A stretch of DNA of 64,000 bases, taken from Comamonadaceae bacterium. GTDB taxonomy: Bacteria > Pseudomonadota > Gammaproteobacteria > Burkholderiales > Burkholderiaceae_C. The notes under the pieces were generated by a model. The model worked only from the letters and a program-made list of their open reading frames with translations, was not told where the DNA came from and did no database searches. Shown piece after piece: positions 55,122 through 57,792 of this stretch; the first letter of the stretch is position 1, and every line of letters starts with the position of its first letter. The DNA is taken from assembly GCA_947454955.1 (NCBI GenBank), contig CANGLW010000013.1:1-64000 (forward strand), given 5' to 3'. The position numbers were made by a program, and so were the translations under genes.

Positions 55122-55838
55122 ATGTCTGATTTACCCACTTCTGGCCCGCACGCCCATGAGGGCGTGCCTGTCTCGGTCAAAATCCGCGAGCGCATCATGG
55201 CGGCGCGCAAGCGTTTCAATGCCAATGACAACATCGCCGAGTTCATCCAGCCCGGTGAACTTGAGCAGTTGCTCGACGAAGTCACCGGCAAAATGGAAGG
55301 TGTGCTCGACAGCTTGGTGATTGACACCGAGCGCGACCACAACACCGGTGACACCGCGCGCCGCGTGGCCAAGATGTACGTCAACGAGGTGTTTCGCGGC
55401 CGCTATGTGCATGGCCCGAGCATCACCGAATTCCCCAATGCTGAGCACCTCAACGAGCTCATGATCGTGGGGCCAATCACCGTGCGCAGCGCCTGTTCGC
55501 ACCATTTCTGCCCGGTCATCGGCAAGATCTGGATCGGCGTGCTGCCCAACGAACACACCAATGTGATTGGTCTGTCCAAATACGCCCGCCTGGCCGAGTG
55601 GATCATGGGTCGCCCCCAGATTCAGGAGGAGGCGGTGGTGCAACTGGCCGACCTGATTCAGCAAAAAACCCAACCCGATGGCCTGGCCATCGTGATGGAA
55701 GCCAGCCACTACTGCATGGCCTGGCGCGGTGTGAAAGACATGGACAGCAAGATGATCAACTCGGTCATGCGCGGTGTGTTTTTGAAAGACGCGAATTTGC
55801 GTCGTGAATTTTTGTCCCTGATCCCAAGGAACAGCTGA
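55122..55838 (+). CDS. folE: GTP cyclohydrolase I (type IA)
   Basis: First step of tetrahydrofolate synthesis, GTP to dihydroneopterin triphosphate. 238 residues. Zinc/active-site segment 'SACSHHFCPVIGKIWIGV' (the CxHH motif) and the later Cys in 'ASHYCMAWRGV' are present; the C-terminus 'NLRREFLSLI' matches the family. Some positions differ from the common E. coli-like form (e.g. 'AEWIMGRPQIQEEAV' in place of the usual 'ARRxQVQERLT'), so it may be a specialised paralogue. The BLUF gene starts one base after its stop. Confidence 0.92.
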   Translation: MSDLPTSGPHAHEGVPVSVKIRERIMAARKRFNANDNIAEFIQPGELEQLLDEVTGKMEGVLDSLVIDTERDHNTGDTARRVAKMYVNEVFRGRYVHGPSITEFPNAEHLNELMIVGPITVRSACSHHFCPVIGKIWIGVLPNEHTNVIGLSKYARLAEWIMGRPQIQEEAVVQLADLIQQKTQPDGLAIVMEASHYCMAWRGVKDMDSKMINSVMRGVFLKDANLRREFLSLIPRNS

Positions 55839-55839
55839 T

Positions 55840-56262
55840 ATGTTGGTACGTTTGCTTTATGTGAGCCGTGCGGTTGACACCTCGAGCGAGATGATCGAGA
55901 CCATCCTCACCAAGTCCCGCTCCCACAACCCCTCAAGCGGTATCACCGGCATTCTTTGCTATGGCGGCGGTATTTTTCTGCAGGCCATCGAAGGCGGCCG
56001 CTCTGCGGTGAGCGATCTGTACCGCATCATCCAAAACGACGCACGCCACAAGGATGTTGAGTTGCTGCATTTTGAAGAAATCACCGAGCGACGCTTCAGC
56101 GGCTGGACGATGGGTCAGGTCAACCTCACCAAAATCAATACCTCGATTTTGTTGAAGTATTCCGAAAGGCCCGAGCTTGACCCGTACGCGGTGTCGGGCA
56201 AAGTGTCCATGGCCCTTTTGGAAGAGCTCATGGCCACCGCCTCGATCATCGGCCGCGCTTGA
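55840..56262 (+). CDS. Short BLUF-domain blue-light photoreceptor
   Basis: 140-residue single-domain BLUF protein (blue light using FAD). Photocycle residues are all present in the right places: Tyr7 (LLYVSRA), Asn30, Gln48 in 'IFLQAIEG', and Trp89/Met91 in 'FSGWTMG'. There is no output domain, so like PixD/YcgF-N type short BLUFs it must signal through a partner protein. The ATG follows the folE stop by one base, which indicates translational coupling, and a DUF429 frame follows nine bases after its TGA. Confidence 0.96.
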   Translation: MLVRLLYVSRAVDTSSEMIETILTKSRSHNPSSGITGILCYGGGIFLQAIEGGRSAVSDLYRIIQNDARHKDVELLHFEEITERRFSGWTMGQVNLTKINTSILLKYSERPELDPYAVSGKVSMALLEELMATASIIGRA

Positions 56263-56271
56263 ACGTCAGGT

Positions 56272-57117
56272 TTGAGCTCTAGGACAGTTGTCGGCTGCGA
56301 TTTTTCCAGCCGGCCTTCACGTCAAAAACAAATCGTTGTAGCGCTCGGCGCCTTGAGTGGCGAGCGTTTGGTGCTCTCAAAACTAGAGCGCTACACCACC
56401 CTTGAAGATTGGCAGCAGTGGCTGCGCACCCCGGCCGATTGGGTGGGTGGCTTTGATTTACCCTTTGGTTTACCGCGCGAGTTGGTGCAAACCTTGGGTT
56501 GGCCCACCGACTGGGCCGCGTGCATGCAGCACTATGCATCGCTGACCCGCGAAGAGATCCGCGAGACCTTTGCTGCGTTTTGCAGTGCCCGGCCTGTGGG
56601 CGGTAAATTCGCCCACCGCGCCACGGACAAACCCGCAGGCTCCAGCCCCTCGATGAAATGGGTCAACCCACCCGTGGCGTACATGCTGCACGCGGGCGTG
56701 CCTGCCCTCATGGATGCGGGCATTCACTTGCCCGGTTTGTGGGCAGGTGCTGCTGACAACCGCGATAACTCAGGCCAGGCGCGCCGTGTGGGCTTAGAGG
56801 CTTACCCCGGATTGCTGGCGCGTGAGGTGCTGGGTGCGCGCAGCTACAAGAGCGATGACCGCGCCAAGCAAACGCCTGAGCGTCTGATTGCCCGCAAAGA
56901 CCTGATCACCGCGCTTGAACATGGCCAGACCCGTTTGGGCCTGCGCCTCAAACTCAGCCACGCGCAACGCGACCACTTGATTGACGACGCCAGTGGCGAC
57001 GCGCTCGATGCGGTGCTGTGCATGGTGCAGGCCGCGTGGGCCAGCCAACAAGGCGCGCCCTGGTATGGCTTGCCGCCTGACCTGGACCCCTTAGAAGGTT
57101 GGATTGTGAGCGCTTGA
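56272..57117 (+). CDS. DUF429 family protein, TTG start, in frame with the BLUF gene
   Basis: 281 residues; DUF429 proteins are predicted to have an RNase H-like nuclease fold. The N-terminus 'VVGCDFSSRPSRQKQIVVALG' is the conserved first strand with its Asp, and 'GGFDLPFGLPRELV', 'KWVNPPVAYML' and 'DDASGDALDAVLCMVQAAWA' (C-terminal Asp pair) follow. The only start that keeps the first strand is TTG 56272. It lies in the same reading frame as BLUF, three sense codons beyond the BLUF TGA, with only a weak AGG as ribosome binding site. Contains one 17-bp dyad element. Confidence 0.85.
   Translation: MSSRTVVGCDFSSRPSRQKQIVVALGALSGERLVLSKLERYTTLEDWQQWLRTPADWVGGFDLPFGLPRELVQTLGWPTDWAACMQHYASLTREEIRETFAAFCSARPVGGKFAHRATDKPAGSSPSMKWVNPPVAYMLHAGVPALMDAGIHLPGLWAGAADNRDNSGQARRVGLEAYPGLLAREVLGARSYKSDDRAKQTPERLIARKDLITALEHGQTRLGLRLKLSHAQRDHLIDDASGDALDAVLCMVQAAWASQQGAPWYGLPPDLDPLEGWIVSA
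56373..56389 (+). repeat. 17-bp dyad element inside the DUF429 gene
   Basis: GCTCTCAAAACTAGAGC, read in frame as LSKLE. Stem GCTCT/AGAGC. Confidence 0.45.
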
Positions 57118-57171: not shown

Positions 57172-57792
57172 TCAATGCAGATCGGTCGAAGCCCTGAACT
57201 CGATGGTCGAGGCGCTGAGGTACTGCTGCGCGGCGTCGTGCGTGCTCAAGGCGCTGAGGTAGCGGCTGTCCACACAAATGCAATTGCCACCGCGGCTTTG
57301 TGCGGCCAGCAACTGGGCCAACACACGCGCCATCCACACACTCACCTCCGAGCGCACCCACAAAGGTGCAAAGGCCGCGCCAATGCTGGCGGTGAGCGGC
57401 TGGGTGAGTTGGGGGTGTTGCAGGTCTTGCACCATCAGCTGCAAACGCTGGGTCACCTCCAGGCCATGGTCGGCCTGGCAGTCGTGCAAGACCACACCAA
57501 ACACCTGGTGGTCGATCAAGCCCACACGGTCTTGCGGGCGCAGGCTGGCGCACAAGGCTTGGCCCATGTGCTGCAGGACCTGGCCATGACCCGCGTCTAA
57601 GCGATCGGGTTGCAACATGATCATCATGGAACTCTCGCCGGACCGGGCGACCCAGTCGATCTCCTGATGCACCATGTCCAAAAAACCACGTTGGCTCAGC
57701 AGCGAGACGGGCGCACTGACCTGCGGGCGCAACGCTTCCCCGGACGGCTGAGGCGCCGTCTCAAGTTGGGGGCGTACGTCATCGGTCTGCAT
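57172..57792 (-). CDS. Degenerate GGDEF-domain protein
   Basis: About 206 residues from ATG 57792; in-frame TTG/GTG codons upstream (to 57879) make the start uncertain. The fold of a diguanylate cyclase is recognisable ('LLSQRGFLDMVHQEIDWVARSGE', 'LRPQDRVGLIDHQVFGVVLHDC', 'LTASIGAAFAP'), but the GGDEF signature is replaced by IDHQVF, so it cannot make c-di-GMP. There is no I-site or membrane segment. Possible roles are GTP or protein binding. Convergent with DUF429 and divergent from the nuclease gene. Confidence 0.75.
   Translation of the reverse strand: MQTDDVRPQLETAPQPSGEALRPQVSAPVSLLSQRGFLDMVHQEIDWVARSGESSMMIMLQPDRLDAGHGQVLQHMGQALCASLRPQDRVGLIDHQVFGVVLHDCQADHGLEVTQRLQLMVQDLQHPQLTQPLTASIGAAFAPLWVRSEVSVWMARVLAQLLAAQSRGGNCICVDSRYLSALSTHDAAQQYLSASTIEFRASTDLH

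Follow-up and report, generated by a model that had tools for sequence, protein, structure and literature searches.

Short BLUF photoreceptors and the folE gene

Short BLUF proteins are common and, to our knowledge, their output partners are mostly unknown. PixD from Synechocystis and TePixD (Tll0078) lack an output domain and need a separate partner, which in the PixD/PixE system is the response-regulator-like PixE. The PixD decamer comprises two pentameric rings, and light makes it release its partner (PMC5899715). On the enzyme side, GTP cyclohydrolase I displays a D5 decameric architecture, and the animal enzyme GCH1 carries GFRP pentamers on its five-fold faces, with this small pentamer-forming protein capping the axes of the decamer and shifting its activity (PMC7750480).

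The sequence-only reading of the DNA studied here named folE as a member of light-induced gene sets, which is right for Pseudomonas: in the PmSB-LOV/PmlR2 system of Pseudomonas mendocina, which includes folM-folE-folX, the gene of a short, flavin-based blue-light receptor lies near folE, the receptor acts through a DNA-binding regulator (class II LitR), and folE is light-induced (PMC9758184). In Rhodobacter, folE2 is part of the singlet-oxygen regulon controlled by RpoE (PMC7074977). E. coli BluF (YcgF) likewise combines a BLUF domain with a separate effector, but this effector is the MerR-type repressor BluR, BluF has a second domain, and no link to folE is known (PMC9758184).

The locus described here, in which the gene of a short BLUF protein directly follows folE, resembles PixD/PixE in the short photoreceptor without output domain that needs a separate partner, whereas the partner gene encodes a metabolic enzyme, and the folE-linked BLUFs form a separate, far tighter subfamily (191−237 bits, versus at most 139 for the other BLUFs). 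The likeness to GFRP is a proposed one and concerns the capping of the FolE decamer; GFRP has no sequence relation to BLUF, and the input proposed here is blue light, in place of phenylalanine or tetrahydrobiopterin. PmSB-LOV is a LOV and not a BLUF protein, and its regulator is missing from the present loci, with no MerR-type LitR gene common to the surroundings of the pair in 40 order-level loci. A search of open-access papers returned no earlier report of a BLUF-folE unit; the protein families are each known, and their pairing and the proposed mode of action appear to be new.

A related system is that of Cupriavidus metallidurans CH34, which carries the pair on its megaplasmid, with a FolE of the same subtype, 67% identical to the enzyme described below, and a BLUF gene right behind it. 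The FolE_IA of CH34 is described as strictly zinc-dependent and single mutants exist, in a paper that makes no mention of BLUF (PMC13192273); judged by its type and not by locus tag, the folE of the CH34 pair is probably this studied enzyme.

Architecture of the folE-BLUF-DUF429 locus

The window, meaning the whole 64,000-nucleotide stretch that was analyzed, contains three consecutive genes on the forward strand: (i) folE (55122−55838), encoding a GTP cyclohydrolase I of the GCYH-IA type, (ii) the BLUF gene (55840−56262), encoding a short blue-light photoreceptor, and (iii) a DUF429 gene (56272−57117) with a TTG start. As the sequence-only reading claimed, the triplet shares one strand with intergenic gaps of 1 and 9 bases, and all three products match their Pfam families (PF01227, 146 bits; PF04940, 105 bits where 25 are required; PF04250, 25.4 bits where 23 are required). 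The host genome, about 95% complete, contains a single BLUF gene and three photolyase/cryptochrome-type matches.

The window FolE scores 150.7 bits against the TIGR00063 equivalog, below the cut-off of 181.6, and thus represents a divergent GCYH-IA subtype, with an N-terminal extension and a loop carrying the motif N143-x-H145. Its Cys125, His128, and Cys198 align with Cys110, His113, and Cys181, the zinc ligands of E. coli FolE, so that the ligand positions are kept. Neither a second PF01227 protein nor a FolE2 (PF02649) was found in the host genome, leaving this folE as the sole GTP cyclohydrolase I found.

The BLUF protein is of the PixD-type short class, with a single BLUF domain (residues 2−92, covering the whole profile, positions 1−92) and no output domain. 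The nearest solved structure is that of TePixD (PDB code 1x0p, 82 bits), and the phmmer alignment extends over residues 2−131, including the C-terminal part. The AlphaFold monomer is poor (pLDDT 55.8), so that decamer formation by the window BLUF is put forward from homology only. The full photocycle set announced for this protein, Tyr7, Asn30, Gln48, Trp89, and Met91, is indeed present, and all five residues are kept in 125/125 folE-linked BLUFs, even though the identity of these proteins to the window BLUF falls to about 46%.

The BLUF gene begins 1 nt past the folE stop codon, preceded by an AAGGA sequence that sits within folE. The median distance between folE stop and BLUF start amounts to 3 nt within Comamonadaceae and 11 nt in the loci of other groups, which makes translational coupling likely. 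No natural folE-BLUF fusion was found among the loci, and one pair overlaps by 1 nt (L026). In the window, the BLUF and DUF429 genes share a reading frame (56260−56272), with one TGA stop and the TTG start between them, so that readthrough would give a BLUF-DUF429 fusion. Facing the DUF429 gene, a weak GGDEF-type open reading frame (35 bits) lies on the reverse strand at 57172−57879; as GLIDHQVF replaces the GGDEF signature, its product looks catalytically dead.

A putative extended −10 promoter of the TCGCTGtTAgcAT type is located upstream of folE (55104−55115, forward strand), 6 nt before the ATG, a spacing that predicts a leaderless folE transcript. The corresponding TGnTAnnAT motif occurs upstream of folE in 75 of the 80 Comamonadaceae loci, where shuffling gives an expectation of 3.8, and in 45 of these 75 the start codon follows 5−7 nt downstream. 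The motif is confined to Comamonadaceae (1/39 loci outside the family); an order-wide promoter or regulator site was sought and not found. No riboswitch was detected near folE, the best Rfam match (E 0.93) lying far below its cut-off.

Conservation of the folE-BLUF pair

Two sets of loci define the extent of the linkage, (i) 80 Comamonadaceae-type loci from a scan of public genomes, and (ii) 300 genomes spread over Burkholderiales, in which the FolE subtype was delimited by at least 63% identity. In the family set, all 80 loci have folE immediately upstream of BLUF. At the order level, a BLUF gene follows directly downstream on the same strand for 54 of the 77 genes of the FolE subtype, and for 51 of 57 when at least 70% identity is required. 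Among these six, the case of G020 stems from a break in the assembly: its folE lies 137 bases short of a contig end, and a linked-type BLUF is located about 350 bases from the end of another contig. Seen from the photoreceptor, the linkage is tighter still: the profile of the linked BLUFs gives 55 matches of at least 191 bits in the 300 genomes, of which 54 stand directly behind folE and the 55th is that of G020, the subfamily spans 191−237 bits while the next-best BLUF reaches 138.6 bits, and no free-standing member of the subfamily was seen among these genomes.

The adjacency of folE and BLUF is far beyond chance. The pair is present in 12 families of Burkholderiales and, beyond the order, in two further families of its class and in one family from a different class; conservation thus exceeds close relatives, contrary to the outcome that the sequence-only reading had named as refuting it, and there is strong support for the proposed connection of BLUF with folE (80/80 family loci and 54/55 subfamily members at the order level). 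In 40 order-level loci drawn from many families, the next most frequent neighbor family within 5 kb of the pair recurs only 7 times, and none of the other window genes is found near the pair in these loci, outside Comamonadaceae. With no other conserved surroundings, the pair does not owe its conservation to conserved gene order. Accordingly, the conserved unit comprises two genes, folE and BLUF, with DUF429 outside it; clsB, eep, nudB, and aspS were considered as members and rejected as local synteny only.

In a phylogenetic tree, the linked BLUFs form one group with 97% support, except for two extremely long-branched rows. The presence of BLUF mapped on the FolE tree requires 7 changes versus 23.7 when labels are shuffled, consistent with BLUF having been gained rarely and lost several times. 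The enzyme itself does not need the photoreceptor, since five FolE genes of at least 70% identity in the order-level set, the contig-break case aside, live without an adjacent BLUF.

The FolE loop tends to change when BLUF is lost, as judged from the aligned sequences. N143-x-H145 is kept in 120/122 linked FolEs. Among 117 positions that are otherwise conserved, His145 is altered most often, with changes in three of four BLUF-less lineages, and Asn143 is among the next most altered (two of four), in a post hoc comparison that comprises only 5−6 independent pairs, for which a sign test has no power and is not significant. In one genome (G245, locus L120), a BLUF of the linked subfamily stands behind a FolE that groups with a mostly BLUF-less sister clade, as if the enzyme had been exchanged and its partnership with BLUF either retained or formed anew.

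FolE as candidate output partner

No gene for a PixE-type response-regulator partner was found near BLUF, folE being the only shared neighbor in the 40 order-level loci. Because no gene other than folE invariably accompanies the linked BLUF, it is simplest to regard FolE itself as the output partner. The view that we tentatively favor, at a little short of an even chance, is that folE and BLUF constitute a co-translated unit in which the PixD-like BLUF would be a dedicated, light-dependent partner of FolE, most likely binding the FolE decamer. What we infer is contact between the two proteins, a change in activity, and the sign of the response to light: BLUF would bind the decamer directly, as pentameric GFRP binds animal GTP cyclohydrolase I; in the dark it would stay bound and damp FolE activity; and blue light would loosen the binding, raising the output of dihydroneopterin triphosphate for folate and pterin synthesis. 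Dark damping with release in the light is a guess at the direction, by analogy with PixD and with the induction of folE genes by light or singlet oxygen in other bacteria. A full shut-off in the dark is unlikely because in 19 of the 53 sampled pair-bearing genomes no other FolE or FolE2 was found. In a stricter form, which gene coupling and symmetry suggest and which we consider possible but rather doubtful, the pair would be a light-gated GTP cyclohydrolase I, with a five-fold BLUF ring docking on the FolE decamer as a direct blue-light switch and making contact near N143-x-H145.

The main rival is transcriptional control, in which BLUF acts through a separate, unlinked repressor or activator, as E. 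coli BluF does through BluR, light raises the expression of folE and other genes, and adjacency reflects co-expression only. It finds a precedent in the short LOV protein with PmlR2, where folE rises 1.6−3.3-fold in the light (PMC9758184), and the predicted folE promoter conserved in Comamonadaceae speaks for it. This rival is nonetheless unlikely, since the 40 order-level loci have no regulator gene in common, the promoter motif is missing outside Comamonadaceae, and a distant regulator would predict free-standing BLUFs of the subfamily, which the 300 genomes do not display. Gene transfer offers a different account of the linkage, that of a selfish operon whose passengers, folE and BLUF, were co-transferred horizontally, so that adjacency records transfer history and not joint function. 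Transfer as such is likely, given that members of single families are scattered over the FolE tree (f21, f22, f27, and f9, for example) and that pairs occur in another class, and it could yield part of the same linkage pattern; yet the tight junction, the photocycle residues intact in 125/125 proteins, and the change of the FolE loop on loss of BLUF point to joint function, and the FolE of G245 indicates that the pairing was kept or remade, which leaves transfer history as an improbable explanation on its own.

A further alternative, that in Comamonadaceae DUF429 is the output partner and forms with BLUF a nuclease or repair unit under light control, draws on the gene following BLUF in 67 of the 80 loci of this family, within 500 nt in 40 of them and behind an inserted gene in 27, and on its fold. 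DUF429 has been assigned to the RNase H-like (RNHL) superfamily (PMC3985635), and the model of the window protein (pLDDT 89.5) has its best Foldseek matches in RuvC and terminase nuclease (E about 0.02), so that an RNase H-like (RuvC-like) nuclease is predicted. The inserted gene, of about 293 codons, appears to encode an EamA-type transporter, a name that comes from reading the sequence and not from a profile search, and separates BLUF from DUF429 in 27/80 loci (L004, L034, L060, and 24 others). DUF429 is displaced in these loci, and none of the 40 order-level loci outside Comamonadaceae has it near the pair. It therefore cannot be the general output partner of BLUF that the sequence-only reading had offered, and even the restricted form of the idea is very improbable; the gene is most reasonably viewed as a local passenger of the unit, specific to the Comamonadaceae lineage.

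With FolE as the favored partner, comparative genomics points unusually clearly to the counterpart of a short BLUF, here a core metabolic enzyme and not a regulator. Binding, if true, would place the folate and pterin synthesis of heterotrophic bacteria directly under the control of light and possibly offer an optogenetic handle on an essential enzyme, and a light-gated FolE would be the bacterial equivalent of GFRP regulation in animals, with light as its input. The N143-x-H145 loop gives mutagenesis a target, and the idea is testable in C. metallidurans CH34, which is genetically tractable and carries the pair.

The surroundings of other FolE genes provide two minor observations. Three ECF-type sigma-factor genes lie near BLUF-less FolE paralogues (L155, L164, L169, L179, L180, and others), possibly marking a stress-regulated version of the same enzyme subtype, and neither photolyase nor MerR families are among the neighbors listed for the BLUF-less FolEs. 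In two genomes a FolE2 gene stands directly upstream of the folE-BLUF pair (G110:C112:12786−13541, locus L113; G259:C35:8380−9129, locus L108), so that both types of cyclohydrolase adjoin the photoreceptor there.
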